A stretch of 30,778 nucleotides of DNA. It comes from a virus. The position numbers were made by a program, and so were the translations under genes. The notes beneath the pieces are model-generated. The model did no database searches. It saw only the letters and a list, made by a program, of their open reading frames with translations, and had not been told where the DNA came from. Positions within the stretch are counted from its first letter, which is position 1, and each line of letters opens with the position of its first letter. Positions 6,037 through 30,778 of this stretch are shown in pieces. The DNA is taken from positions 1 through 30,778 of the IMG/VR virus record IMGVR_UViG_3300004460_000348; one strand, written 5' to 3'.

Positions 6037-6492
6037 TCAATTATTTTTAACAAATTCATCAAACCATTCCACGAAGGTGTCGAAGTCACGCGAAATCATG
6101 TACACACCACCAGCGCGTTCGATTGATTCTTGGTATCGCTTTTGTGCGTCGCTTTGACGGTCTTTACCGACCTTAACTTCAATCTTTACTGAACGTCCAC
6201 GAATAGTCGCTGAAATGTCAGCTGAACCAGCCGTGGTTGTTCCCTTCGTCCACGTCACACCGATAAGTTTTCCGTCCGTTCGTTTGTTTTCCCTTGCGAC
6301 ACCCATTGTGTTGATTCTTTCCGCTTGGTAGCCGTTGAACTGGATGAACGATGTGATTGCCTTGGTCAATCCATTTGCGGTCTTGTCGTCCCATTTTTTC
6401 TTGACGAAGTAATCTTCAGGAAATGAAGGATGTCTTTCGATGTCATTCGCCAGCTTCAGCGCGTCAAGTCGTTGTTTGTTTTCTTTTTTCAT
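6037..6492 (-). CDS. VRR-NUC/PD-(D/E)XK nuclease-like protein
   Basis: A 151-residue protein. The C-terminal half has GSADISATIRG followed by KIEVKVGKDRQSDAQKRYQE, the D...ExK plus Q-rich helix pattern of VRR-NUC and Holliday-junction-resolvase-like nucleases (Asp in GSAD, Glu-Val-Lys in IEVKVG, Gln in SDAQ). It then closes with AGGVYMISRDFDTFVEWF. Phage versions resolve branched DNA before packaging. The first ~40 residues are basic and helical. It overlaps the methyltransferase stop by one base (TAATG) and ends just before the promoter-like sequence in front of erf. Confidence 0.8.
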   Translation of the reverse strand: MKKENKQRLDALKLANDIERHPSFPEDYFVKKKWDDKTANGLTKAITSFIQFNGYQAERINTMGVARENKRTDGKLIGVTWTKGTTTAGSADISATIRGRSVKIEVKVGKDRQSDAQKRYQESIERAGGVYMISRDFDTFVEWFDEFVKNN

Positions 6493-7121
6493 TAGAAAAG
6501 TTTTGTTTGTGATTTGTGATTGTTTATTCGTTGAATTGCTTTGTCGAAGTATTCCTTGTCAAGTTCGCACGCTGTTAAGTCGAAGCCATAATCGTGACAC
6601 GCAATCGCAATTGATCCTGAACCAAGGTGTGTGTCAAGAATCTTGTCGCCTTGCTTTGCGTACTTATCAAGAATCCATTTGTAAAGTTGTGGAGGTTTTT
6701 GTGTTGGGTGAAATTTTTCACTTTTATTTAGATAAGCGGAATACCTAAAAATTTTATTTGCACCACTAAATGAAGTCCAAGCAAATTCACAATCCGAAAA
6801 TGATAAACCTTCTGGAATTTCTTTGTCCCAAATTATGTATTTTTTACATATACCTAAATTGAAATAATTACCCCCCCAGATTATTTGATTTTTTGAAACA
6901 CGAAACAATTCATTGAAGTATTCTGGTAAAGGAATTTCATTGTCCCAGTCTTTTGAAGTCCATTTTCTGTTTTTTGATTTTGAAGCTTTTGGTGTATTTC
7001 CTAATCCCATATTCATATTAGCCAAATCAATCCCATACGGCGGATCAACAATAGCCAAGTCAAAGAACTTGTCAGGATACCTTGACATCAATTTCATGTT
7101 GTCTTCGTTCGTTATCTTCAT
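6492..7121 (-). CDS. DNA methyltransferase, N6-adenine/N4-cytosine type
   Basis: A 209-residue enzyme with the motifs in beta-class order. The catalytic motif IV is DPPYG at 26-30, HPTQKP at 138-143 precedes the SAM-binding fold, and motif I is DTHLGSGS at 163-170. The DPPYG motif makes adenine methylation the likelier reaction. It probably protects phage DNA from host restriction or marks it. By eye the middle of the gene (6680-7060) is more AT-rich and has longer A/T runs than its neighbours, suggesting separate acquisition. There is also a G7 tract (minus strand, near 6876). It has no restriction enzyme partner nearby, so it is an orphan methylase. Its start is coupled by ATGA to a small membrane protein. 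Confidence 0.88.
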   Translation of the reverse strand: MKITNEDNMKLMSRYPDKFFDLAIVDPPYGIDLANMNMGLGNTPKASKSKNRKWTSKDWDNEIPLPEYFNELFRVSKNQIIWGGNYFNLGICKKYIIWDKEIPEGLSFSDCEFAWTSFSGANKIFRYSAYLNKSEKFHPTQKPPQLYKWILDKYAKQGDKILDTHLGSGSIAIACHDYGFDLTACELDKEYFDKAIQRINNHKSQTKLF

Positions 7122-7282: not shown

Positions 7283-9670
7283 TTAAAATGGACAATCGTT
7301 TTTGGATGTGGATTCGTTCGCTGGTGAACCTTCGGATAAGATAAAATAACGACCTGAATGGTTGTGACCTTCGGTGTATTTGTACGCTTTGAAATTCGCG
7401 TATTCCTTCACCCATTTTTTGAACTTTTGAGTTGACAAGTCCCGGAATGAATTTGTTTCCTTTTGAAATTCCTGAAGCTTCGCTTGATTGTAATGGTAAA
7501 TTTCAAGTTCAAGATTTCCTTCACGAACGAATTCATAAAAGTCCTTACAAGTTGTTTGAATGAAACGCTTCGTGTCAGCGTTGATTGATGTGGTTGCGGT
7601 CAATCCTTCGTTTAGGTATTTTTGAACGTTCGAAATCATGTAGTTGTCGAATTTTGACCAGTCATCTTGTGACCAAGAATCAAACAACAAACGACCGTAT
7701 TCTTTCAACGGCGAATGTTGCGCGTTGAAATACTGAAAAAATTCAAGTTCGTGACGTCGTCGGTCGTGACTTGATCCAGCGCCAGCAATGACATAATTCG
7801 TTGTTATGACAATCTTCGGTGAACGTTCAAATGGAATGTAAATTTCATCTTTGTTTTTTCGGTTGACCGTTATTCCTTGTGACACCACGCTGAACAATTG
7901 CTCAAAGTCGAAGTTCTTTTTCACGTCATCGAATGCAAGAATTTGCGTATCAAGGTTCACGCGTTGATAAACGAAGTCATTCTTTAATGAATTGAATTGC
8001 TTTCCGTCCACGGTCACAATGTTCCTGAAATAACCGATTGCCGTCAACATCAATGATTTCCCCGAACCACCATTCGCGTTGTCGTTTATTTCTTGGTCAT
8101 TGAAAATGATTGCCTTTTGTTCGGTCTTGTCTTTGTATGTGTGCATTAAATAACCAAGCGTTGTTTCAAGCGCTTCGCTTCGTGTCTTGTCTTGATTCGA
8201 AACCTTGGAAATGAAATCTTGGAAATCATTCTTGTGATTGTCCAGCTGAATGAAGTCGCGGTTCAAGATTTGGTTTTCCCAAATGTAACCGTTGACATCA
8301 ATGTAACTTTTTAAGCTGACATCCTTCTTCGTGATTGTGACCACGCCGTTCTTGAATGGAATAAAGGATTCCGTCTTGTTGTCCTGAAGCATTTTGACAT
8401 CAATCGAATCAATCATGTTCAGGAAATTTTCGCTGAACAAATACGTCGAACGTGAGCAATAATTCCAAACGGATATTTCACCTCGCTTTTCAAGGTATTT
8501 CAAAACGAAATCTTTGATTTGTTCCACCGATGACAAACGAACTTTGTTTTCATTAACCACAACGAATGTCGGTGACAAAGCGCGTTCCGGATAGTATTTT
8601 CCGAATCCATGTTTTGAAAGAAAAGCTGAATAATTGTTCGGTTCAATTGAAATCTTTTCCCCGGTCTTCAATTGTGTGATTGTCCAAAAAACGTCTTGAT
8701 TGTTTTCAACGTCCGATTTGATTTCTTCGATTTGTTCTTGGTCAAGTCCAAGCGCTTCGGTTATGTCCTTGGTCGCAATTCCTTGTCTAATTTTTATCTT
8801 TGCTTTTGTCAGCTTTTCATTGTCTTCGAAATACTTTGATTTGAAGTCAGCTGTTCGAAAAGCGCTTTTGATTGTGTTCACCAGTTCCGCTTTCGTGAAG
8901 TCAGTCGACACGAATTGTTCAAGGTGATATTCGGCGACGTCGCGTGTGATTCCGTATTCACAAAGACAAGCGGAAAGCTTGAAAATGTAATTGTTGCGAT
9001 TTCCTGAACTGAATTCACCACCGAAGTCGAACTTCATGATTCGTTCAATTATTTTTGATTCATCCACTAATCGACACACTGGTGGACGTTCAAGGAAAAC
9101 GTGTCCACGTTCTTGGTCAATGGTTGTGAATTCATCGCAAAATTCGTTCATGTAAGCGTCTGGATCATACGATTCGAAACACACCCTTGAAACGTTTTGA
9201 CTGGATGTATCGAAGTAATCGGAATTCAATTCAATTTCCAGTGCTTTGAATCGTCGCTTGTGTTCTTCTTTCGTTGACTTCGGAATCTTTACAACCACCT
9301 TCAATCCTTTATTCGAAGGTGAAGTGAAAACCATGTAAACAAATGGCAATGATTTGAACCTTTGCTTGTCTTGGTTCATTGTTTCTTCGTCAGGATAGTC
9401 GTCGAAATCAAGAATACAAAGACCAGAATGTTCAATCAATCCGTTGTCGGTTCGCTGGTTGAATGTTCCGTTGAACATAATTGCAAGCAATGAATTTTTC
9501 AATGACCGATAAGCTTCGGTTGATTCGTCCATTTCACGAAGTCGTTTGATTTTCGAAATAAGTTCTGGATAACCATTCTTAATTCGATTGTAAACTTCGA
9601 CCACGTTCATCGTGAACGGTGTTTCTTTTGCGTTAAATAAAGACCTGAAGACCGATATATTTGGAATCAT
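7283..9670 (-). CDS. Primase-helicase: VirE-N/BT4734-like (AEP-type) domain plus SF3 (D5-like) helicase
   Basis: A 795-residue replication protein. The N-terminal ~170 residues resemble the BT4734/VirE-N domain linked to archaeo-eukaryotic-type primases: ILDFDDY at 86-92, TSPSNKGLKVVVKI at 116-129 and SSQNVSRVCFESYDP at 156-170. The C-terminal half is a superfamily 3 helicase with Walker A GGSGKS at 534-539, Walker B ILAFDD at 577-582, motif C KIVITTNY at 619-626, and an arginine-rich patch SSHDRRRHELEFF after it. It would open the replication fork and lay primers, so the phage need not rely on host DnaB or DnaG. It is the first gene after the 358-base non-coding region. The ATG at 9670 is the only reasonable start. 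Confidence 0.88.
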   Translation of the reverse strand: MIPNISVFRSLFNAKETPFTMNVVEVYNRIKNGYPELISKIKRLREMDESTEAYRSLKNSLLAIMFNGTFNQRTDNGLIEHSGLCILDFDDYPDEETMNQDKQRFKSLPFVYMVFTSPSNKGLKVVVKIPKSTKEEHKRRFKALEIELNSDYFDTSSQNVSRVCFESYDPDAYMNEFCDEFTTIDQERGHVFLERPPVCRLVDESKIIERIMKFDFGGEFSSGNRNNYIFKLSACLCEYGITRDVAEYHLEQFVSTDFTKAELVNTIKSAFRTADFKSKYFEDNEKLTKAKIKIRQGIATKDITEALGLDQEQIEEIKSDVENNQDVFWTITQLKTGEKISIEPNNYSAFLSKHGFGKYYPERALSPTFVVVNENKVRLSSVEQIKDFVLKYLEKRGEISVWNYCSRSTYLFSENFLNMIDSIDVKMLQDNKTESFIPFKNGVVTITKKDVSLKSYIDVNGYIWENQILNRDFIQLDNHKNDFQDFISKVSNQDKTRSEALETTLGYLMHTYKDKTEQKAIIFNDQEINDNANGGSGKSLMLTAIGYFRNIVTVDGKQFNSLKNDFVYQRVNLDTQILAFDDVKKNFDFEQLFSVVSQGITVNRKNKDEIYIPFERSPKIVITTNYVIAGAGSSHDRRRHELEFFQYFNAQHSPLKEYGRLLFDSWSQDDWSKFDNYMISNVQKYLNEGLTATTSINADTKRFIQTTCKDFYEFVREGNLELEIYHYNQAKLQEFQKETNSFRDLSTQKFKKWVKEYANFKAYKYTEGHNHSGRYFILSEGSPANESTSKNDCPF

Positions 9671-9874: not shown

Positions 9875-9971
9875 AGCGCGACAAAATTACAAAAGTTTTT
9901 ACCCCCCCCCCTAAAAAATACAGCATTTTTTTCAGGGACGGTATATAAGAGAATCGTAACTTTGTCGCGCT
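9875..9971. repeat. Inverted repeat, 15 of 16 bases, flanking a C10 tract
   Basis: The left arm at 9875-9890 is AGCGCGACAAAATTAC. The right arm at 9956-9971 is its reverse complement with one mismatch. The 65 bases between include ten consecutive C and an AT-rich block. The repeat is too widely spaced for a simple terminator. It could bind a dimeric or looping protein, or form a cruciform at an origin. Confidence 0.6.
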
Positions 9972-10028: not shown

Positions 10029-10439
10029 TTATGAATGAGCAAAGATAAGTGAAATGTCGGTCTTTGTCAATGGTTTGTTAAATTCTTTCAACATTCCTTT
10101 CGTAAACTTTCCACGGATCGTGATTGAATCTTCAGTCGTTTCACAATCGAAATATCTTTTTTTTGGAATCCTCGATTCGTCAGTCACCAGTAATGGTAAA
10201 GGATGTATTGAACGAAGGTATTCACCGTCCATTTGCGACCACCAGCGGTCGTGTTGATTCAAAGCATGAATGACACTGGAATGATTCATGTTAAAAAGTT
10301 CACCGATTTCACGCAAACATAATCGTGAACGGCAATGAAGGATGTTAATAAGATAGTATCGTTTGTAAACGACTTCGCGTTTTCGACATGGTTTGTCAAG
10401 GTTGAATTCAGCGATTAGTTCTTTGATGTCTTCGTTCAT
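10029..10439 (-). CDS. DnaA C-terminal-domain-like DNA-binding protein
   Basis: A 136-residue protein. Residues about 28-66 contain YLINILHCRS, then LREIGELFNMNHSSVIHALN. This closely follows the DnaA domain IV pattern (RxxxxxLxREIGxxFxxxHSTVIHA), the helix-turn-helix that reads DnaA boxes. No AAA+ domain is present, so it is a free-standing DnaA-box-type reader rather than an initiator ATPase. It could mark the phage origin or compete with host DnaA. Two TTATGCACA words at 12190-12219 are possible sites. It is coupled by ATGA to the methyltransferase upstream and is the last gene before a terminator and the 358-base gap. Confidence 0.75.
   Translation of the reverse strand: MNEDIKELIAEFNLDKPCRKREVVYKRYYLINILHCRSRLCLREIGELFNMNHSSVIHALNQHDRWWSQMDGEYLRSIHPLPLLVTDESRIPKKRYFDCETTEDSITIRGKFTKGMLKEFNKPLTKTDISLIFAHS
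10040..10070 (-). promoter_or_regulatory. Promoter-like sequence inside the end of the DnaA-C-like gene
   Basis: The minus strand reads TTG (10070-10068), 20 bases, TATCTTTG (10047-10040), a textbook match to TTG-N17-23-TAnnTTTG. The predicted start, near 10035, lies about 30 bases before the terminator-like hairpin at 9979-10004. Transcripts towards the primase-helicase would therefore meet the hairpin at once, as in an attenuator. It may also be chance within coding sequence. Confidence 0.35.
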
Positions 10440-11068
10440 TGTAATCTATTTTTAATTATTTCAATATATTGTTTGTCAATTTCAAATCCAAGATATTCAA
10501 ATCCTAAATTTTTAGCCACCTTCAATGTTGTTCCGCTACCAGAAAACGGATCAATGATTAATTCATTTTCTTTTGCTGTCGTCAAAATTATTCTTCGAAT
10601 AACTTCTTCAGGTATTTGACAAGGATGAATTGTTTTTTCTTTACTGACATTTTTCACTTGATTAATTTCCCACCAGTCATAAATTTTTGAACCAGTTTTT
10701 CCGCGTTCAATCAATTTTTTAATACGTTTGTCATTCGGATTTTTGTAAGGTTGTGTGACCTTTCTAAAATCTGGTTTGCACCCCCACCATGAAATCAATC
10801 TTGATTGTTTTCCGGTATTTGAATTGTAAACCCATGTCACAATTTCTTCACATTTTGATTTCATTGCTAATGGAAGCAAATTGATTGTTTCTTCAGGATA
10901 GTGAATAATGACACAAGGTTTCGGAATCATTGAAAGCAAATCAATATATTCATCAATTTTCAATTTATCTTTGTAATTGTGATAATGATAATTTTGATTA
11001 TACGGCGGATCAGTAATTATCAATCCTGAAGGAATTTCACATTCTCTAAAATCTTTGTTAATTATCAT
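10436..11068 (-). CDS. Second DNA methyltransferase, DPPY type
   Basis: A 210-residue enzyme with DPPY at 20-23 (motif IV), the SAM-domain lead-in HPCQIP at 148-153, and motif I DPFSGSGTT at 173-181. This is the beta-class order also seen in the other methyltransferase of this genome, but the two proteins differ throughout, so they are not a recent duplication. It likely methylates adenine N6 or cytosine N4. There is no restriction partner. By eye the gene is distinctly AT-rich (long A/T runs through 10440-11060) compared with the virion genes. Both ends are ATGA overlaps with small neighbours, so it is well integrated in the operon. Confidence 0.87.
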   Translation of the reverse strand: MIINKDFRECEIPSGLIITDPPYNQNYHYHNYKDKLKIDEYIDLLSMIPKPCVIIHYPEETINLLPLAMKSKCEEIVTWVYNSNTGKQSRLISWWGCKPDFRKVTQPYKNPNDKRIKKLIERGKTGSKIYDWWEINQVKNVSKEKTIHPCQIPEEVIRRIILTTAKENELIIDPFSGSGTTLKVAKNLGFEYLGFEIDKQYIEIIKNRLQ

Positions 11069-21711: not shown

Positions 21712-21733
21712 GTTACTATATTATGTATTTTTG
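21703..21733 (+). promoter_or_regulatory. Promoter-like sequence for the single plus-strand gene
   Basis: The plus strand reads TTG (21703-21705), 20 bases, TATTTTTG (21726-21733), a full match to TTG-N17-23-TAnnTTTG with near-ideal spacing. It overlaps the start of the divergent protease gene. The expected start point, near 21738, coincides with the ATG chosen for the gene, which would make the message leaderless or nearly so. Confidence 0.55.
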
Positions 21734-21737
21734 TTCG

Positions 21738-22400
21738 ATGACATTTGTATTTCCCTACCGAAAAAGTCGCGATGACTTCGACATTCAACAATCAATCCGA
21801 TTCATTCGGATGTCTTTTCCTGAAGCGAACATCGTAACCGTTGGCGATAAGGTCTCAACCATTGACAACATTCCATGTCCACAATTAAACAACATTCGTG
21901 GTTCGGATGTGACGAATAAAATGTTGACGTATGCGCGTGAACGTGGTGGTGAATTCATCTACATGAACGACGACTTTTATATCACGCCAAAACTTCGCGC
22001 CGACATTCCGATTCATGTTGGTGAATTCGAATTGAATCCACGACATCCTTCACACTATCGTGAAGCAATGTTCAACACGATTGAATTCTTGAAATACTAC
22101 GAACGACCATTGTGGAATTTCGAAACACATTCACCAGTGTTGATGAATTCGGACAAGTTGCTTGAAATCTTTGAACTTATCGAATGGCAACGATACAACC
22201 ATTTCATCAAATCAATTTACCTGAACATGAACTTGCCTGAATTAATTCGCAAAGGTCACAACGTCAAGCTTGCAAAAGACAACATTCCCAAAGCTGAAGA
22301 ATTGCTTCGAACGTATGGTTGCTTTTCCACGTCCGATTCATTCCTAACAACGCGCGGTCGCTCATGGATCAAAAACTTGTTTTGGATTCCTGAAGCTTAA
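21738..22400 (+). CDS. Stealth-like/GT-A-like sugar transferase, sole plus-strand gene
   Basis: A 220-residue protein. It begins MTFVFPYRKSRDDFDIQQSI, as in GT-A-like enzymes. Residues about 73-82 (EFIYMNDDFYI) match the FxYxNDDxF motif of Stealth proteins and related capsule sugar-phosphate transferases. Residues about 131-143 (NFETHSPVLMNSD) resemble the later Stealth block with a conserved His. It probably transfers a sugar or sugar phosphate to a cell-surface or virion glycan. I start it at 21738 rather than the in-frame ATG at 21723, which lies before the promoter's -7 element. It overlaps the 3' end of the tape measure gene tail to tail by 32 bases. It looks like an added moron gene. 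Confidence 0.72.
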   Translation: MTFVFPYRKSRDDFDIQQSIRFIRMSFPEANIVTVGDKVSTIDNIPCPQLNNIRGSDVTNKMLTYARERGGEFIYMNDDFYITPKLRADIPIHVGEFELNPRHPSHYREAMFNTIEFLKYYERPLWNFETHSPVLMNSDKLLEIFELIEWQRYNHFIKSIYLNMNLPELIRKGHNVKLAKDNIPKAEELLRTYGCFSTSDSFLTTRGRSWIKNLFWIPEA

Positions 22401-25071
22401 CTTTGTTTTGTGTTTGACTGATGTCGCTTTCAAGGACAAAAACTTGTGACGAAGGAATGTTGTTTGTCATTGTGCCTTGTTCACCAAGCAATCCAGCCGT
22501 TGACGTTTGGTTGTTTGAAGAAGTAAACGACGAAGCACCAGCACCAGCCATTGAAGCACCACCACCACCACCATTTGAAAAGTTTGGCGCGCTTGGTGCT
22601 GAACCAGCTTTGTATTGTTGGTTTGCGATTGCGAGCGCTTGCGTCACACCGATGACACCAGCCGACGCGATACCAGCGATACCCATGGGTGACGGTGGTG
22701 GTCCGAATTGTGCGATTGCCTTCACGATTGCGGACGCCGTATCGATTGCAACCTGACCAAGCTTGATTGCTTTGTCACGCATGAATTGTTGCTTCTTAAT
22801 TTTTTCTTCGGCTTCGTAAGCTTGAACCTGAACAGCGTATTTTTGTTTCGCGAACTTTTCTTCAATGGCTGTCTTTTGTTCAGCGGTCAATCCTTCAGCG
22901 CTTAATTCAGCTTGCATTTTTGCGTCAAGATTTTCAAGGTCAGATTCGCGTCGTCCTTGAATCTTGTTCAATCGTGCTTGGTCGATTTCGTCCATTAAAG
23001 CGTCAACGGTCTTCAAATGATTCATGACCATTTGCGCATTCTCAAGGAATGTCGAAACATCCTTCAAAGATTCTTCACGATTTTTGATTCCTTCTTCTTT
23101 ACGCTTTTCCGAAGCTGTTTTGTTGATTTCAAGAATCTTGTCCGCTTTCTTTTGTTCCAGTGCAATCAAAGCGTTGTCATGTTGTTCTTTTGTGATTCGT
23201 TCGTTTTCGTCCGTTGAATTCAATCGACGAAGCAATTCTTTTTTTGCGTCTTCGGTTGTCTGGTTCAATTCTTCAAGCGCCTTTTGTTCGTCGTCCAAAA
23301 CAATATCGTTCAGGAATTTTTGTCGGTCACGTCGTTTTGTTTCATTGTCAGCGTCAATTTTCAATTGAGCGTCGGAATATCTTTTTCGAACTTCAGCTTT
23401 TTTAGTTGCTTCTTCAGCTTCAAGTTGTGCAACCAATTGCGCGCCTTCTTCACCAAGTTGTTTTGCTTGTGTTATTTTTTGAAAGTATTCGTCCTGAATG
23501 TCATCAAGTTCGTTTTGCATGGCGGATTGTTTCGAACGTCGGATTGCTTCGTCACGCGCTTCTTCTTCAGCAATCATTTCATTGTTGTGCTTTCTTAAAT
23601 CTTCTTTCGATTTTTCGTCCGCTTGTGTTTGTGCTTGTTTAATTTTTTCATTTGACTTTTGTCGCGATTCAAATGCTTTCTTTGCATTGTCTTGCGCTTG
23701 TTTTTCGACTTCATGGTTGTGTTCGGCAACCATTACTTCAATCGCGTTCTTCGTTGCGACATTGTCTTTGTATGAATCAGCAATGATTTTCTTTGAAGCT
23801 TCAAGTCGTTTTTTCAAAGCTTTGTAACGGTCGGAATCCACGTCTTCATTTTCAAGCAACAATTCCATTTCCGCACGAATCGCTTGCATTTTGGATTTTT
23901 GAACCTCAAGGAAAACGCGACCGCTTGCTAAATGCGCTTTCGCCTTCAGTAATTCCATTTCATATGTGTCCTTTCCTGAAGCTTTCGCCATGTTGATTTC
24001 GTGCGTATATTTAGCGTCGGTGGCGTCTTGTTCTTTCTTGATTGCTTTTGCTCGTTTGTCAGCATTTTTGATGACAGCTTCGGTGTGGTCTTGTGCGTTC
24101 TTTTTCATCTTCGCCGTTTGAACATCGTCCACAGCACCGAAGTATTCAAGCGCTTTGACCACGCCGTAAATAACAAGAAGCAATGGCGCGAACGCAAGGA
24201 CAACAAGTCCAATCGCAATCTTTGCACCCGGACCAAGCTTTTCAAATTCTTCACGCGCTATCAAAACATATTTGGAAATGGTATCGAAGTTAGCAATTAA
24301 CAATCCAAGCGCAACAACGATTGCACCGATACCAGTTGAAATCAAAGCAAGTCGAAACAATTTCAACGCACCAGTCGAAGCGGATGTTGCGACGGTGCTT
24401 GCGACGGTTGCACCAGTTTGCGCACCAATTGCGGTTGTTTGTGCGCTGGTTGCAACGGTTCCTTGAACGAACGATGAATTCTTTAATTTTTCCCATGCCG
24501 TCCGAAGCTGGATTCCGAGAATTGAATCCGAATTTAATTTGTTTGCAATCGTCGTCACGGAATTGACAAGACCTTGAACCGCTTGAAGCTTGACCATTGT
24601 TTGTGTCAATTTCTCATTTTCAACACCAGTCAAAGCCATTGCCGATTGAACACCCATGAACGCCGACGCACCGACTTCGATTCCAGACATTGCCGTGTCA
24701 AGACCAACGAAGTCCGATGACAACGCGGTCGTTTGCGCTTTCAAGTCACCGATTTCATCCTTCAATCCTGAAGCGTTTTGCAAAGCTTGCGCACCAATCG
24801 GTGAACTTGCACCAGCTTGAATTGCGATGTTCTGGTATTCCTTCATTGTCTTGGTCATATCACGCATTGACAATCCACCAGCTTCAAGACGTGCGTCAAG
24901 TTCCGCAAGCCGTTGCGCCAGTGCGTCGGTTCCGCTTGTATCTTGTGCGATGTCTTGTGTGTGCTGTAAATCTTTGCCAAGTTGATTGACCGCCTTGTCC
25001 GCGTTTTGAAGGTCTTGAACCGAATTCCCGGTGTTGACCTTGACGGTGAAGACCGCTTCTTTATTTGCCAT
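22369..25071 (-). CDS. Tail tape measure protein
   Basis: A 900-residue protein. Residues about 10-110 are a helical coiled-coil. Two transmembrane-like stretches lie at about 239-262 (ALISTGIGAIVVALGLLIA) and 282-308 (AKIAIGLVVLAFAPLLLVIY). A very long charged, Lys/Glu/Gln-rich coiled-coil (about 330-770) follows, and another Gly/Ala-rich hydrophobic stretch (about 800-830) precedes a Ser/Gly-rich tail. This is the standard layout of the protein that fixes tail length and joins in DNA injection. At about 1.5 angstrom per residue the tail would be roughly 130 nm. It follows the two big tail proteins, and its 3' end overlaps the plus-strand gene. Confidence 0.93.
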   Translation of the reverse strand: MANKEAVFTVKVNTGNSVQDLQNADKAVNQLGKDLQHTQDIAQDTSGTDALAQRLAELDARLEAGGLSMRDMTKTMKEYQNIAIQAGASSPIGAQALQNASGLKDEIGDLKAQTTALSSDFVGLDTAMSGIEVGASAFMGVQSAMALTGVENEKLTQTMVKLQAVQGLVNSVTTIANKLNSDSILGIQLRTAWEKLKNSSFVQGTVATSAQTTAIGAQTGATVASTVATSASTGALKLFRLALISTGIGAIVVALGLLIANFDTISKYVLIAREEFEKLGPGAKIAIGLVVLAFAPLLLVIYGVVKALEYFGAVDDVQTAKMKKNAQDHTEAVIKNADKRAKAIKKEQDATDAKYTHEINMAKASGKDTYEMELLKAKAHLASGRVFLEVQKSKMQAIRAEMELLLENEDVDSDRYKALKKRLEASKKIIADSYKDNVATKNAIEVMVAEHNHEVEKQAQDNAKKAFESRQKSNEKIKQAQTQADEKSKEDLRKHNNEMIAEEEARDEAIRRSKQSAMQNELDDIQDEYFQKITQAKQLGEEGAQLVAQLEAEEATKKAEVRKRYSDAQLKIDADNETKRRDRQKFLNDIVLDDEQKALEELNQTTEDAKKELLRRLNSTDENERITKEQHDNALIALEQKKADKILEINKTASEKRKEEGIKNREESLKDVSTFLENAQMVMNHLKTVDALMDEIDQARLNKIQGRRESDLENLDAKMQAELSAEGLTAEQKTAIEEKFAKQKYAVQVQAYEAEEKIKKQQFMRDKAIKLGQVAIDTASAIVKAIAQFGPPPSPMGIAGIASAGVIGVTQALAIANQQYKAGSAPSAPNFSNGGGGGASMAGAGASSFTSSNNQTSTAGLLGEQGTMTNNIPSSQVFVLESDISQTQNKVKLQESKTSF

Positions 25072-25092: not shown

Positions 25093-27396
25093 TTATATTA
25101 TTGAATCATTGTTTACTTGTGTTATCACCGTCAACGGCGTTGAACGTTCAGTTTCGAATTCTCTTTCTTGTGGTGTTCCTTCACCTTGTATCAATCGCAA
25201 CAATTCGACTTGTGTCGTTCGGTCTTTGGTTGAATCGTAATCGCTTATTTTTTGCAAACGATACACAACGCCATTGATGTTGATTAAGTTGCGGAAATCA
25301 AGCGTGTTGATTATTGCCGTGTCAATTTTGGCGTAGCAAGTCAAAAGCTTTCCGTAACGTGATACAAGTTCCTGAATAAAGGTGTTGTGATATTGCAACA
25401 AGTTGTTGTTCGTGTAGACGGTCGCTGAATAGTACACCGTTTGCGGAACACCGAAGTTCAAGTCCGATGTCGGCGCGTCAATGTCATCAAGGTGTCCGAC
25501 GTAAGGATAAGTCGTCAAGTTGTTTTGGTGGTTGAATTCGTCGTGATATTTCCATGTAGCTGGACGCATTCGACCAACGTACACGATGAACGCCGTTCCT
25601 TTTTTCGGCACGACTTGACCATTTCCAGCGGAATCAAAATTCACTTGATAACAAGCTGGAATAATCAACGACGGATGTCCTTCGACCAAAGGTTTTTGAC
25701 TGAAAGGCAAAGCCATGTTTGTGACTTGCGTCGCATATTGACTTTGTGACAAGATTTGAAATTCACCATAATTGTCAAGGAATTCATTTTGATATTTTCC
25801 ATTCCAGTAGTCACCGTCTTGTTTGAAATTAAAATTGTATTCCTTCGACGCGTAGTTGATTGTCGGTTGAACATTCAGTTCTTTTGAGTAGTCAACCAAT
25901 TGCGTCCAGTCAAGCGCGTCTTGTGACGATGTGTAAAATTCCGAAAGCGGTTCGATTTCAATAACACTTGGATTGTCCGTCGCTGGTTTTATCATTAAGT
26001 TGAACATCGTTATCAATCCTTTGAAAAAGACGTCACCAGTCATGTCAGGTAAAAATGAACCAATTGCCACCGTGCCACCGGGAACAAGTTCTTGAATCGT
26101 CTTCAGGAAATTCACTTTTGTTCCAGTCGAAGTCAGTTCAATTGTTCGTGTTAATAAATCAACGCCAACCGAAAGACCAGCTTCGACAACCAATGTAACG
26201 CCGAATCGAATTTGGTCATTGATTGTGCAATTTATTTGACGTGTGTAATTGAATGTAAATGTATTCGAATAATCACCTAACAATGAAACAATACTATCTT
26301 GATAAATTACGTCGCTTGCGATAACCGTTCCGTTCTTGATTACGAACAAATTCAATCGAACGTTGAACCAGTTCAATGTCGTATTGTCGAACTTGATGTC
26401 AAGCTGGTGATTTCCTTTGTATTCAACTGTGTACATTCCAGTCGTTCCAGCATTGATAAGGAACGGCGAATTTGTAACCGTTTGCGAAATCGGATCACTT
26501 GTCACCGTAACATCAACGACGTCCGAAAGATTCGCGTCTGGAAAACTAACCATTCCACTTAAACCTTGTTGATTCGTTGAACCATTCACAATGAATCCTG
26601 AAGCGTTGTTTATTTCATTTGAAAAAACGGAATCATTCGCTTGTTGCGCTGATGTGATTGTCGGAAAGTTTCCACCATAATACGCCATTAATAACTTCTT
26701 GAATCTTTGACTTTCAAAAAATTTCGATGACCATGTGATTCCGGCGTATTCGAATAACTTCTTCAGGATTGTGTAAACAAATACTTGTGGCGCGATTTCG
26801 TCACAATCGAACTTATCTGGTGCGGTGTGGTGTCGGTAGCCATAATCAATCAATCCATAATAGTAACCGACGCCATTCCAGTTTGTTCCAGTTTTTATTG
26901 ATGTTGACACACCGTTGATTTGATTCAATCCTGACCAAGTTTCGAATTGATTCGCCTTGGTCAACGCGTGATTGAATTCGCTGAAATCAAGTTCGTTTAT
27001 CTTGACCTTGTTCATTCTTGAAATATAGTCAATCGTGTCGGACACCAAGGTCAAATCGAATGACCACGTTCCGTCAATTAACTTGCATTCCTGAAGTTGT
27101 GCGATTCCATTGAATTCAAGAATACCATTGTTGTAATATCGTGCCGTTGCTTTAATACTTGGATCAAAGTCAAGAATCGCTGAATTCGTGTCGGTCGTGT
27201 CGTCGGTATATGTCAACAAAAATATCGAACGGAAAATTGCCGAATTCGAATTCGTTCCGGGAATCGTAATTGTCTTCGACTTGTTTCCTTTACGCGCCGA
27301 CACATCGCGGATGTCAGCAATGTTGAACGTCAACGGAAACGGAAGCGTCTGGTCGATGTCAATTAATCGGTCGTTTATGTAAAGTTCGCCAGCCAT
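25093..27396 (-). CDS. Large tail protein, hub/baseplate type
   Basis: A 767-residue beta-rich virion protein. The N-terminus (MAGELYINDRLIDIDQ, then RDVSARKGNKSKTITIPGT) has the pattern of Bacteroidota phage tail proteins that start with a small hub-like domain. The middle contains several beta-strand blocks (SGMVSFPDANLSDVVDVTVT) consistent with repeated sandwich domains. It overlaps the previous gene by one base (TAATG) and is followed 21 bases later by the tape measure start. Whether it is the hub, the distal tail protein or the receptor-binding protein cannot be told. Confidence 0.7.
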   Translation of the reverse strand: MAGELYINDRLIDIDQTLPFPLTFNIADIRDVSARKGNKSKTITIPGTNSNSAIFRSIFLLTYTDDTTDTNSAILDFDPSIKATARYYNNGILEFNGIAQLQECKLIDGTWSFDLTLVSDTIDYISRMNKVKINELDFSEFNHALTKANQFETWSGLNQINGVSTSIKTGTNWNGVGYYYGLIDYGYRHHTAPDKFDCDEIAPQVFVYTILKKLFEYAGITWSSKFFESQRFKKLLMAYYGGNFPTITSAQQANDSVFSNEINNASGFIVNGSTNQQGLSGMVSFPDANLSDVVDVTVTSDPISQTVTNSPFLINAGTTGMYTVEYKGNHQLDIKFDNTTLNWFNVRLNLFVIKNGTVIASDVIYQDSIVSLLGDYSNTFTFNYTRQINCTINDQIRFGVTLVVEAGLSVGVDLLTRTIELTSTGTKVNFLKTIQELVPGGTVAIGSFLPDMTGDVFFKGLITMFNLMIKPATDNPSVIEIEPLSEFYTSSQDALDWTQLVDYSKELNVQPTINYASKEYNFNFKQDGDYWNGKYQNEFLDNYGEFQILSQSQYATQVTNMALPFSQKPLVEGHPSLIIPACYQVNFDSAGNGQVVPKKGTAFIVYVGRMRPATWKYHDEFNHQNNLTTYPYVGHLDDIDAPTSDLNFGVPQTVYYSATVYTNNNLLQYHNTFIQELVSRYGKLLTCYAKIDTAIINTLDFRNLININGVVYRLQKISDYDSTKDRTTQVELLRLIQGEGTPQEREFETERSTPLTVITQVNNDSII

Positions 27397-28607
27397 TAAG
27401 TAAGTTGTGAATTGTATGTGTATGTTCTCTGAAGGTTCACCGTTTCACGAATCAATCCGTCAACGCGTCGTTGCTTCAAGTTGAAATCTTCATTCGTAAC
27501 CTTCACTGGTTCGAACGCACCGGGTGTCACTTCAAGATAAACTTTCGGTGATTCGTAAAGTTCACGCACCAACCATTGTTGAACGCTTTCATGAATCCAG
27601 TCGGAATTCAAAACGGTCGTGTCGGTTGCGTATTTGTTGAACGCCATTTGTTCGCCGTGGTATCGTGTATATTCCCAAGCTGTTCCAGTGTTTGTCCATT
27701 GACCGCGTTCCCTTTGATATTCCGATGTTTTCACCTTGGTCGAATTCGTTGACACAAGCGTGAAGGTAAATGAATCCCAACCACCAAGCTTGTTCAACCA
27801 GTGAAGTCGTTGTGTGTCGTATCGATGACATTCGGTGTCAATCCAAAACATAAACGTTTCGCTGAATCCTGAATTCGTTCCAGAATCAAGACCTTGAACG
27901 CTAACGGTGAAATAAGCGCACGATTGAAAGTTAAGCAATGTGACCGATGTATTCGCAATCAAGTTTTGTGGTGAACAATCAATCACGTTCAAGTCACCAA
28001 CACCAATCGTGCTTGTGTAGCTGGTGATTAATGTTCCAGTAATGTCGAAAAGATTCAGGTAAAAGTCAACGTTCGGTTTGCTTCGATTGATGAACGTGAC
28101 GAAGGCGCTTTCGTAAAGTCCGACGAAATACTTTCGTTTTCTTGGAAAGTCAGTCAAAAATTTTATATTCCATGAATTCGGATTGATTCTTGAAACCATG
28201 TAGTCAAGGTAGTCATAATCAATAAAGTCAGGGTGACGAAGCGAAGCGTTCCATGCGCGATTGATTGATCCAGTCACAAACGTTCCTGACAACACTGGTG
28301 GCGTTCCGTACTTTTCGTAAACACGAATGTTTACCACATCGACCGCTTTATCGTAGAAAGTAAGCAACGCGCCAGTTGTCACCATTTCGCTTGTCAACAA
28401 ACATCGAAGGTCACCGCTTGCGTCGAACCTTGCGTAATTAGCTGATTCGTTGAACACTTGATGTGTCGATACAAGTGAACCACCGACGTAAAGTTCAACA
28501 ATGAAACTGAAGTTCGGTTGTGCCGTTTGGTCGCTTTCAAAAACCCACACATACGGATTGCAAGCTGGTTGAAATCGTTGTGGTTGTTGTGTAATTGTTA
28601 TTGCCAT
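27396..28607 (-). CDS. Minor tail/distal tail-type protein
   Basis: A 403-residue beta-rich protein. It begins MAITITQQPQRFQPACNPYV, and its first ~100 residues have an immunoglobulin-like strand pattern. The middle block HRYDTQRLHWLNKLGGWDSF is a strong signature of tail proteins in Bacteroidota phages and prophages, where it sits in front of the hub and tape measure genes. It ends with the strand-rich GLIRETVNLQRTYTYNS. It overlaps the gp10-like gene by 10 bases. It probably lies at the tail tip; the exact role is not known. Confidence 0.7.
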   Translation of the reverse strand: MAITITQQPQRFQPACNPYVWVFESDQTAQPNFSFIVELYVGGSLVSTHQVFNESANYARFDASGDLRCLLTSEMVTTGALLTFYDKAVDVVNIRVYEKYGTPPVLSGTFVTGSINRAWNASLRHPDFIDYDYLDYMVSRINPNSWNIKFLTDFPRKRKYFVGLYESAFVTFINRSKPNVDFYLNLFDITGTLITSYTSTIGVGDLNVIDCSPQNLIANTSVTLLNFQSCAYFTVSVQGLDSGTNSGFSETFMFWIDTECHRYDTQRLHWLNKLGGWDSFTFTLVSTNSTKVKTSEYQRERGQWTNTGTAWEYTRYHGEQMAFNKYATDTTVLNSDWIHESVQQWLVRELYESPKVYLEVTPGAFEPVKVTNEDFNLKQRRVDGLIRETVNLQRTYTYNSQLT

Positions 28608-29119
28608 TTTTGAGTTGTCTTTTCGAATTTAATTTCAAACGTCAATCCAGTGATTTCGGTTAAGTCCTTTGCAATCATTTCAAGCACCTTGTCATTGATG
28701 ACATTGTCGGTGATAAGCTTTGGTTTCAAACCACGTTGCTTGATGTTCGAAGCAATCGCAAAAGCGTGTGACATTTCAAGTCCTTTCCATTCTTGGATTG
28801 CCTTCGCCATGTTGTAAGACACACCCGGATAACGAAACGAAAAAGCGCTTGCGTGATTGACAGCGATTCCGTTCACACCTTGGTCAACGAACTTGTAGTA
28901 ATCGTCCGCCTGAATTTCAAATGACAAGGCACCAGTCGGAAAGTACACCACCGATTGCGCAAGCGCACCAGTGTTCATTGCATTCTTTTGAATGTATTCA
29001 CGAAGGTCAGCGGTTACTTTGTTACCAACGTTTAGAATGAATTTTTCATAGACGTTTTTCGGTTGTTCAGCTTCGGCAACCGACACCCCGAATTCTTCAA
29101 GGAAATCAAAGTCAGCCAT
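28598..29119 (-). CDS. HK97 gp10-like tail component/neck protein
   Basis: A 173-residue protein. The central section has NTGALAQSVVYFPTGALSFE followed by YYKFVDQGVNGI, the strand-turn-strand with FVxxGVxG that marks HK97 gp10-type tail-completion proteins. A helical C-terminus with basic residues (IKQRGLKPKLITDNVI) follows. It starts one base after the stop of the frameshifted chaperone product, so translation is tightly linked. It would act in the head-tail junction or tail completion. The fold call is by pattern. Confidence 0.72.
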   Translation of the reverse strand: MADFDFLEEFGVSVAEAEQPKNVYEKFILNVGNKVTADLREYIQKNAMNTGALAQSVVYFPTGALSFEIQADDYYKFVDQGVNGIAVNHASAFSFRYPGVSYNMAKAIQEWKGLEMSHAFAIASNIKQRGLKPKLITDNVINDKVLEMIAKDLTEITGLTFEIKFEKTTQKWQ

Positions 29120-29120
29120 G

Positions 29121-29896
29121 TCAACGTTGTTTGTTTAATATGTATTCTTGTTCGTCTTTCAGCTTCAAGTAATTCATCCAGAACAATGTCTTCACATACG
29201 GTTGTTTAGTGATTGCGTCAATGCTTGTTCCAAGTTCTTGTCCAAGTCGCTGAAGTATTCTTGTCCATGTGAACCATTCGTTGTCTTCAAGTTCGCCATT
29301 GCGTTCCGTTGATTCATCATTGTCCGAATCGTCTGGATTGCTAACATAGCGTCGTTCCGCTTCAATGATTCGCGCAAAAAAAAACCGAAGAAGTTCATGA
29401 ATTCTTCGCCGTCGAATTGTTCCTTGAAAGCTTTGTATCGTTTCTCGTTCGGATTCAACACACGACCACGGTCATCTTCTTGACAGTATTCCATTCCTTC
29501 TTCGACATAGCAAATAGCAAGCGCTTGAACTGGATCACTTGCGACGTCTTCGATTAGTTTCAAGTCAATGATTTGCCCGGTTGAAATCAAACGGAAATCT
29601 TTTTCAAAGATGTAACGCTGACCGTTGACCGTCACTTCACCAAGCGGTTCGGCGTAATTGTAATTCGCAATCATTCGCGTCAAGTGACCAGACAACCGCT
29701 GAACGTCTTCGATTGCAAGTTGCTTGACCTTGTTGACCTTCATTCCTGAAAAGATTGCGATAAGCTGACATTGAAAGTCAAGCATTTGAAACAATTCATC
29801 GTTTTGCTTTTCCTTGATGACTTCAGCCAACATCAACCATTTGACAAGCTGGTCAGGTTTGCATTCGTGAATCGAAGCTGGTAGTTTTATTTTCAT
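29121..29896 (-). CDS. Tail assembly chaperone, long form made by -1 frameshift
   Basis: Reading 29896 to the T tract in frame 0, then slipping back one base at T_TTT_TTT (29384-29378), opens 85 more codons to the TGA at 29121. That stop is one base before the gp10-like start. Total length is 258 residues. The extension has good protein character: an acidic linker, then the helical block EWFTWTRILQRLGQELG and LFWMNYLKLKDEQEY. It resembles the second tail-chaperone domain of Bacteroidota phages. Lambda gpG/gpGT work the same way: the long form recruits tail tube subunits to the tape measure. The alternative is a homopolymer length error that makes this the only real gene. Confidence 0.72.
29192..29896 (-). 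CDS. Tail assembly chaperone, short form (frame 0)
   Basis: A 234-residue helical protein, coupled by ATGA to the end of terL. Its shared N-terminal ~173 residues (starts MKIKLPASIHECKPDQLVKW, with LDFQCQLIAIFSGMKVNKVK) fit a lambda gpG-like chaperone that coats the tape measure during tail assembly. After the T9 tract at 29376-29384 the frame-0 end is 61 residues, Met/Asn/Gln-rich and less protein-like than the -1 frame. I take the ATG at 29896, not the in-frame one at 29950, which lies within terL. Confidence 0.75.
   Translation of the reverse strand: MKIKLPASIHECKPDQLVKWLMLAEVIKEKQNDELFQMLDFQCQLIAIFSGMKVNKVKQLAIEDVQRLSGHLTRMIANYNYAEPLGEVTVNGQRYIFEKDFRLISTGQIIDLKLIEDVASDPVQALAICYVEEGMEYCQEDDRGRVLNPNEKRYKAFKEQFDGEEFMNFFGFFLRESLKRNDAMLAIQTIRTMMNQRNAMANLKTTNGSHGQEYFSDLDKNLEQALTQSLNNRM
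29378..29384 (-). promoter_or_regulatory. Slippery heptamer T_TTT_TTT for -1 frameshifting
   Basis: The minus strand has nine T (29384-29376) placed so that frame 0 reads GGT TTT TTT TTG. The heptamer T_TTT_TTT is in the exact phase needed for a -1 slip of both ribosome-bound tRNAs. The -1 frame stays open until 29121. I see only a weak hairpin downstream (AGCG-GAACGA-CGCT), so stimulation by RNA structure is not evident. Confidence 0.7.
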
Positions 29897-30778
29897 ATTC
29901 TCAAAGTGTTGTATTTCCCTTTCGACTTGTTGTTCTTCATGGAATTCCACGCAAGCGCCAACGACATCACGCCGTCGTCGTGTAGTCCAGTCGGTGCGCT
30001 ATATTGAACGTTCCTTGTTTTCGGATTGTAAATATAAGTAAATGATTCCAATTCGTCAAGCAACCATTTCACATCGTTGACACGAATCGATTGTTGTTCG
30101 AACGAAAGCGCAAGGTCTTCAATCAATATCGGTTTCGACTTCGATGTGGTCACGAATGGAACGACCTTGTTCCGCAATGTATTTTGAAGCATTTCGAAGA
30201 ACACGTCACCTTGGTTGTTAACTTCGACCGTAGTGATTGCGTTGAACTGACGAATCAAGTTCGCCACCTTGTCAATGATTCGCGACCAGTCATCATGACG
30301 CCAGCGTTCAACATGAACCATGTGACCGTGTTCGTTCAGGATTGTCAGCACCGTGTAATCGTCAGCGCGTCCGATGTCAAGACCGCCATACATTCGCGAT
30401 GTGCGTTCACCTTGACCGATACACGACGACACACCCTTGAATAAGCCACCAGCGTTGTCCATGAATTCGGCAAGGTATTCTTGACGGAACACATGGTCAG
30501 GCAATGACCGCTTGCGTTCTTCAAGTTCCTTCGGATCAATCATCGGATTGTCGAACGAAGTGAAATGGAAATAACGATAACGGTCGTCGTAGTTTTGCTG
30601 AAGACACACCCGGTGAAAATGATTCTTTCCTTTCGGCGTTGAAATGAAGATGACCTTCTTTCCTTTGACCAAGACCGTAGCCGACAATACTTCGTCCCAA
30701 AGTTCAGGACGTGTGAACGCGAATTCATCGACCACCATGTAGTCGAATGTGTTTCCACGAATGTTGTCTGGTCGTTCA
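29893..30778 (-). CDS. terL: Terminase large subunit, C-terminal part (begins at left end of window)
   Basis: This is the second part of TerL, entering at the window edge as ERPDNIRGN. The Walker B motif VVDEFAF lies at whole-protein residues about 121-127, followed by the coupling motif FISTPKGKNHF. The nuclease domain starts with MYGGLDIGRADDYTVL (Asp240 the first metal ligand), continues with ITTVEVNNQG, and ends with LHDDGVMSLALAW carrying the last acidic cluster. This RNase H-like domain cuts the concatemer. The stop at 29893 overlaps the chaperone start (ATGA). All catalytic residues expected are present. With positions 1-317 it forms a 400-residue enzyme. Confidence 0.95.
   Translation of the reverse strand, partial: ERPDNIRGNTFDYMVVDEFAFTRPELWDEVLSATVLVKGKKVIFISTPKGKNHFHRVCLQQNYDDRYRYFHFTSFDNPMIDPKELEERKRSLPDHVFRQEYLAEFMDNAGGLFKGVSSCIGQGERTSRMYGGLDIGRADDYTVLTILNEHGHMVHVERWRHDDWSRIIDKVANLIRQFNAITTVEVNNQGDVFFEMLQNTLRNKVVPFVTTSKSKPILIEDLALSFEQQSIRVNDVKWLLDELESFTYIYNPKTRNVQYSAPTGLHDDGVMSLALAWNSMKNNKSKGKYNTLRI

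Follow-up and report, generated by a model that had tools for sequence, protein, structure and literature searches.

Does a run of nine T in the gene that directly follows the terminase give a phage access to a second protein-coding frame, and if so, what slips on the run and what are the products for? The locus lies in the virus record IMGVR_UViG_3300004460_000348, and the window referred to below is the whole stretch of 30,778 nucleotides that was analysed. The original prediction, made from the letters alone, held that the gene encodes a tail assembly chaperone and that a programmed -1 ribosomal frameshift at the run, with a weak hairpin downstream, yields a second, longer product.

Layout of the locus

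The run is located on the minus strand at 29384-29376, in the claimed phase (GGT TTT TTT TTG CGC), and is the sole A/T run of nine or more in the entire window. The -1 frame was also correctly described: it is open for 85 codons past the run, ends with TGA at 29123-29121 and leaves one base before the ATG of the next ORF at 29119. A point missing from that description is that the 0 frame stays open for another 61 codons past the slip. The unshifted product would have 234 aa and the shifted product 258 aa (173 + 85), with a common start and residues 1-173 in common. The relevant features are as follows.

29893-30738, minus strand: terminase large subunit, directly upstream (phrog_2, E 1.8e-25; Terminase_6N); alternatively open at its 5' end to the window edge
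29192-29896, minus strand: 0-frame ORF, candidate short (gpG-like) product, 234 aa, with helical N-terminal domain (ORF list and translation)
29376-29384, minus strand: T9 slip run (sequence; T9 in 167/167 relatives' sites in reach)
29121-29378, minus strand: -1 extension, 85 codons and TGA, putative C-terminal part of the long (gpGT-like) product of 258 aa (open frame, protein conservation)
29318-29377, minus strand: first 20 0-frame codons past the slip, read as constrained in both frames (phase analysis and conserved 0-frame columns)
28598-29119, minus strand: next gene, 173 aa, starting 1 base past the -1 stop (phrog_29822, listed as of unknown function, E 2.1e-4)
22369-25071, minus strand: tape-measure-like protein, 900 aa, fourth gene downstream (phrog_1686, tail length tape measure, E 2.6e-4)

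The end of the terminase ORF overlaps the start of the recoded gene by four bases, and in 20 of 25 relatives an ATG able to start the next gene is found within 18 bases around the -1 stop. The first seven T (29384-29378) form a T_TTT_TTT heptamer in 0-frame phase, and the P2-type T_TTT_TTG is likewise in phase (29381-29375). Since every run of nine T contains an in-phase T_TTT_TTT, its presence does not discriminate for ribosomal frameshifting.

Conservation of the run in close relatives

We scanned IMG/VR with the upstream 173 residues, and T9 followed by G was found in 80 of the best 80 loci. Seven scans, each limited to its best 80 loci, gave 169 distinct neighborhoods once overlapping contigs had been collapsed by their 120-nt neighborhood, and the run is exactly T9 in 167 of the 167 sites in reach. 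This number comprises 166 sites seen directly and L137/L270, which was looked up separately and may duplicate another site; in L172 and L245 the site is out of contig reach, and these two are outside the 167. A second collapsing method, applied to T9-bearing sites only, gave 160 sites. The T-rich site and the open -1 frame are therefore kept in homologous loci, and the concern raised with the original prediction, that the run might be a sequencing error for 8 or 10 T, is contradicted by the presence of T9 in relatives from many assemblies.

If the 0-frame residues are kept fixed (G, A or S before FFL), T9 has a chance of 0.007-0.029 per sequence under the codon usage of the window, relatives not being independent draws. 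Codon identity among same-residue pairs is 1.00 at the three slip codons in 76 non-redundant sequences, compared with a mean of 0.498 at the 130 other upstream codons and a maximum among them of 0.998, at the fifth codon before the shift (296 sequences were reduced to 76 at 97% identity, with L221, whose extension has 78 aa, left out). The 25 representative loci, 151 kb in total, contain 25 T9 runs, two T8, one A8 and neither A9 nor T10. Judged by codon choice, the slippery run is conserved beyond amino-acid need.

Probable protein-level constraint in two frames

The -1 extension has 16 invariant columns in 26 sequences, including W35, F36, W38, P60, Y61 and W67, and in this alignment it is a conserved protein whose frame is under protein-level constraint. 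For phase analysis we used 26 representatives sharing less than 85% nucleotide identity. Upstream of the slip, variation is greatest at 0-frame third positions, and in extension residues 1-7 and from residue 29 onwards it is greatest at -1-frame position 3. In residues 8-15 the pattern flips, with variation of 0.39/0.12/0.15 at -1-frame positions 1/2/3, position 1 being the 0-frame third position. The 0-frame columns L174, R180, A183 and Q188 past the slip are conserved in the 26 sequences, within the motif FFLRES..R..AI..IQ. Because the phase of variation flips and this motif is conserved, part of the first 20 codons past the slip appears to be under 0-frame constraint too. The rest of the extension looks shaped by the -1 frame, and the 0-frame tail beyond approximately 20 codons looks unconstrained; simulations that kept the -1 protein gave no selection for an open 0 frame beyond chance (P 0.03-0.64, 19 sequences tested singly).

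AlphaFold2 modelled the 0-frame product (pLDDT 78, pTM 0.68) with one helix at residues 163-204 running across the slip point. Its model of the -1 extension, of low to moderate confidence (pLDDT 68), is helical. At one locus (L062, from position 1806) T9 is intact and the -1 extension has 32 codons, against 96 in near relatives, with an apparent internal deletion.

Since T9 is kept, the slip codons are synonymously fixed and the -1 extension is conserved, it is very likely that the short (234 aa) and long (258 aa) products are both made from one start. We infer the existence of both products from these comparisons, which lend strong support to programmed access to the -1 frame.

A second subfamily with the same run

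In order to identify more distant homologs, we compared the model of the 0-frame product with BFVD using Foldseek. It obtained 33 matches at E <= 0.001 (best E 1.3e-21), mostly uncharacterised proteins of uncultured phages, and including Nonlabens phage P12024S (E 2.7e-7) and Flavobacterium phage 6H (E 1.8e-4). P12024S gene 38 (JQ823122, L462) lies directly after the terminase, as in the window, and carries a T9 run (23578-23586, read as CTT TTT TTT TAT) with an open -1 frame. A scan with the P12024S protein recovered 63 loci at 25-99% identity; the run is T9 in 62 of them and T10 in one, where it arises by substitution and the reading frame is kept. The -1 extension has 80-92 aa among the loci listed whose contig is long enough, and its first seven residues are almost fixed at the nucleotide level (0.20/0.09/0.10; phase analysis of 60 of 64 loci).

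The nine T are distributed differently over the codons of the two groups: 1+6+2 in the window group (GGT/AGT/GCT/AAT, then TTT TTT TTR; 160 sites) and 2+6+1 in the P12024S group (GTT/CTT/ATT/TTT, then TTT TTT TAY; 39 sites). Their profiles align with an hhalign probability of 97 (E 7e-11), and by this measure the window group and the P12024S subfamily are homologous over the N-domain. The C-terminal parts compare worse than the N-terminal parts, with a probability of 3 and an E of 0.015 for the window extension against P12024S; in shuffle tests (500 shuffles) the window extension gave P 0.002 with L489, 0.028 with P12024S and 0.098 with L474.

The arrangement would change the reading of an annotated genome. 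P12024S gene 39 (23663-23830, phrog_38404) is in all likelihood no gene of its own but the 3' end of the -1 frame that extends gene 38, and the two annotated genes are probably two ends of one recoded gene. Genes 40/41 of P12024L (L470) have a layout identical to P12024S genes 38/39.

Two further explanations would remove the need for programmed slippage, namely that T9 is a sequencing error or marks a broken gene, or that it is a replication-slippage (phase-variation) switch. Homopolymers are error-prone, and the record of phage 6H does have an indel in the homologous gene. These explanations are nevertheless very improbable, given an exact T9 at all 167 sites across many assemblies and again throughout the second subfamily (with its one frame-keeping T10), including the GenBank genomes of two isolates; a switch would moreover be expected to leave frame-changing T8 or T10 variants.

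Relatives encoding a single open reading frame

Six distant phage proteins match phrog_25418, and each is encoded by one continuous ORF of 259-301 aa with T runs of at most 6. They come from Flavobacterium phages FPSV-F7 and laban6-1, Cellulophaga phage Ingeline_1, Polaribacter phage Leef_1, Bacteroides phage BT-TP2 and Microcystis phage Mea-Yong924-1. At the equivalent junction FF is found in four of the six; FPSV-F7 has YF there, and Leef_1 does not have FF. The original prediction had named homologs encoding only one frame as evidence against it. Such homologs do exist among these distant relatives, and all of them are outside the two T9 subfamilies.

The N-terminal part of the P12024S subfamily aligns with the phrog_25418 proteins at an hhalign probability of 96.7 (E 3e-10). 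Compared end to end, the fused product of the window group aligns with them more weakly (E 3.3e-4, probability 38), and its extension alone found no support against the single-ORF set (probability 0.4, E 0.17). Shuffled controls put the window extension at P 0.054 with laban6-1, 0.226 with FPSV-F7 and 0.954 with BT-TP2, and the P12024S extension against BT-TP2 at P 0.006. Thus a single ORF seems to hold both domains in distant phages, which suggests that the N- and C-terminal parts belong together. Natural counterparts of the long form with a single ORF probably exist, the step through the C-terminal part being the weaker one, and what looks like one protein would then occur naturally in single-ORF and frameshift versions. 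These comparisons identify a recoded gene in families that PHROGs lists as of unknown function (phrog_32199, phrog_38404, phrog_25418).

In Flavobacterium phage 6H (KC959568, L463; 10352-10927) the homologous ORF has 191 aa, compared with 293 aa in the near-identical FPSV-F7. The 6H record looks erroneous here, since a 2-base indel and local mismatches sit just before the stop.

Ribosomal or transcriptional slippage

The mechanism we consider most likely is a -1 slip of the ribosome on U_UUU_UUU, to which we give roughly twice the weight of slippage by RNA polymerase; a ribosomal slip on the P2-like U_UUU_UUG would also agree with precedent. The gene after the terminase would then give two proteins from a single start: the majority of ribosomes would stay in the 0 frame and produce the 234-aa protein, and some would slip back one base on U_UUU_UUU (GGU UUU UUU UUG) and read 85 codons of the -1 frame, producing a 258-aa form whose conserved C-domain is helical and rich in tryptophan. 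If lambda gpG/gpGT and P2 gpE/E+E' are a guide, the tape measure protein would be coated by the short form, and the long form, the rarer of the two, would bring in the tail-tube protein through its C-domain. This explanation as a whole, a ribosomal slip in the post-terminase gene that gives a short and a long chaperone, has in our judgement somewhat better than an even chance of being correct. Access to the -1 frame, as originally claimed, is borne out by the comparative evidence; its ribosomal nature is likely, and transcriptional slippage also fits the data.

The latter would consist of RNA polymerase adding one U (or losing two) on T9, after which ordinary translation makes the long protein; one U added to the mRNA would give the identical 258 residues. 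We regard this as a less probable but serious explanation. The run is never shorter than nine in two subfamilies of different phase and flanks, though a ribosomal heptamer needs seven, and bacterial RNA polymerase is reported to slip efficiently on nine A/T, also in vivo (PMC5009743), with Tn, n>8, among the runs listed for transcriptional frameshifting (PMC3711429). Thermus dnaX and Shigella mxiE are described as reaching a second frame by transcriptional slippage on a long A/T run (PMC5009743, PMC3711429); they are not phage tail genes, and the shifts in phage tail genes are described as ribosomal (PMC5009743). A shorter T6G is enough in P2, and amino-acid constraint in both frames can by itself yield the two extra T, so that the length of the run does not decide the mechanism. 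The more specific proposal that a widespread phage group, probably of Bacteroidota, sets a short/long chaperone-like pair by polymerase slippage on a strictly kept run of nine T or more, the first 20 codons past the slip coding in both frames, is slightly less probable again. In cultured P12024S the two mechanisms could be distinguished.

Ribosomal frameshift sites often have a conserved stimulatory RNA structure but do not require one; that no stimulator covaries here also fits slippage by the polymerase. The weak hairpin of the original prediction is recovered as a prediction, and among 18 sequences there are 0 pairs with compensatory change downstream of T9, with shuffles scoring as high. 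Fold predictions downstream of the run in the window gave z -0.18 and -0.91; six of seven single-sequence folds are ordinary, the seventh (L160) having z -2.19. As a candidate for a conserved stimulator RNAalifold gave just a 4-bp hairpin, AGCG/CGCT, 14 nt past the run and free of compensatory change. We rejected it, as its conservation is explicable by the two reading frames that overlap there. An outer helix present in some sequences pairs in 60% of cells and no more.

The preferred ribosomal reading has a close parallel in P2 gpE/E+E', which likewise comprises two products from one start, a -1 shift and a C-terminal part in the -1 frame, and whose site, GGT TTT TTG, is that of the window (GGT TTT TTT TTG) less one TTT codon. 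The account of E/E+E' in PMC3091744 reports it without a downstream structure, and the window group has none that covaries in the 18 sequences. The two systems differ in that P2 E has 6 codons from the slip to the 0-frame stop, compared with 61 in the window. No homology was detected when the window group was compared by hhalign with P2 gpE and the P2 extension, and when the window extension was tested by shuffling against the -1 extensions of P2 and Mu, P was 0.49 and 0.57. For lambda gpG/gpGT, the proposed logic pairs an abundant short form with a rare long one that carries a -1-encoded C-domain (PMC5009743). The window gene would resemble lambda in this short/long logic; searches at the level of families gave no significant match. 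Both slip sequence and gene position in lambda differ from those of the window. A literature search covering few subscription journals brought up nothing about frameshifting for these genes; PMC8008677 describes frameshifts, but for a reverse transcriptase gene.

Possible function of the two putative products

Two forms with a small helical C-domain are the architecture of tail chaperones, and a tail-chaperone role is plausible by that analogy. Searches against tail-chaperone families returned no match above cut-off. The first Pfam match of the window protein is Phage_TAC_7, the family in which P2 E is named, at E 0.047 and 14.2 bits against a cut-off of 25; it is matched by 4 of 26 relatives at E <= 0.1 (best E 0.011) and is the family most often matched among them. 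HexPS-like gives a better sub-threshold E (0.0021) in 2 of 26 relatives. Approximately 15 of the 24,736 Pfam models are tail-chaperone families, and a family of this kind as the top match is therefore suggestive, not evidence of membership. No such family was matched at E <= 1 by any of 13 proteins taken from the second subfamily and the single-ORF relatives.

Other searches were negative within their scope. The gene product gave nothing significant in PHROGs (all E >= 0.02) and no match at E <= 1 among 50,697 phage records. Against the PDB, Foldseek found no match at E <= 0.001 for either the 0-frame model or the extension model (pLDDT 68), and VIA-align gave nothing usable for the 0-frame model (best Z 3.1). 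Among the best 50 of 239 BFVD matches, the label 'tail assembly chaperone' occurs only at rank 37 (E 0.018) and rank 45 (E 0.45). A profile search of solved structures returned one match for the -1 extension (E 0.43). It also returned 12 repeat-protein matches (best E 3.6e-5), which we took as chance hits to a short repeat-like motif, because none has a stretch that passes on its own.

A G/GT-type pair lies just before the tape measure gene, and P2 E directly before gene T; the window gene follows TerL directly and does not adjoin the tape-measure-like gene. The recoding could be the same and the protein one of head-tail joining, or another minor structural component, made in two forms, a reading compatible with either slip mechanism. 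The place right after the terminase, here and in P12024S, is in keeping with it, as are the scores of all TAC families, which stay below cut-off. Ingeline_1 can be read both ways, since its gene comes after the portal, the adaptor and one small gene, and is also the third upstream of the tape measure gene. With Phage_TAC_7 as first Pfam match of the window protein, though sub-threshold, and an architecture of two forms with a small helical C-domain that is typical of tail chaperones, we consider a non-chaperone protein rather unlikely.

The original assignment to the tail assembly chaperones keeps its two-form architecture, a weak Phage_TAC_7 match and a P2-like site in its favour, with the cut-offs unreached and the tape measure gene not adjoining. 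We would describe the gene as one that works like a G/GT pair. We do not assign it to Phage_TAC_7, because the match is sub-threshold and the position argues against a textbook G/GT locus.

Hosts and other features of the window

The hosts are probably Bacteroidota, since relatives infect Nonlabens, Flavobacterium, Cellulophaga, Polaribacter and Bacteroides and the window has a BT4734-like domain. The host of Nonlabens phage P12024S is recorded as Persicivirga, and one of the six single-ORF phages, recorded on Microcystis, is an exception. A prophage search with query A7 through 387 genomes of the starting MAG's phylum gave one match, that MAG itself; queries A12 and phrog_25418 matched nowhere at all, and their blank result is therefore uninformative.

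The tail module of the window contains two further minus-strand genes, at 27396-28607 and 25093-27396, whose proteins (403 and 767 aa) have no PHROGs match at E <= 0.1 and no significant Pfam match. A 225-aa ORF on the opposite strand (21723-22400, plus), not known to be a gene, is located between the S78-like protease and tape-measure-like genes and has no Pfam match at E <= 0.001. A run of ten C (9902-9911, plus), with T7 runs nearby, lies between the minus-strand ORFs at 7283-9670 and 10029-10439. Small DNA methyltransferase genes of 209 and 210 aa, each with phrog_67 as its best match, are encoded on the minus strand at 6492-7121 and 10436-11068.
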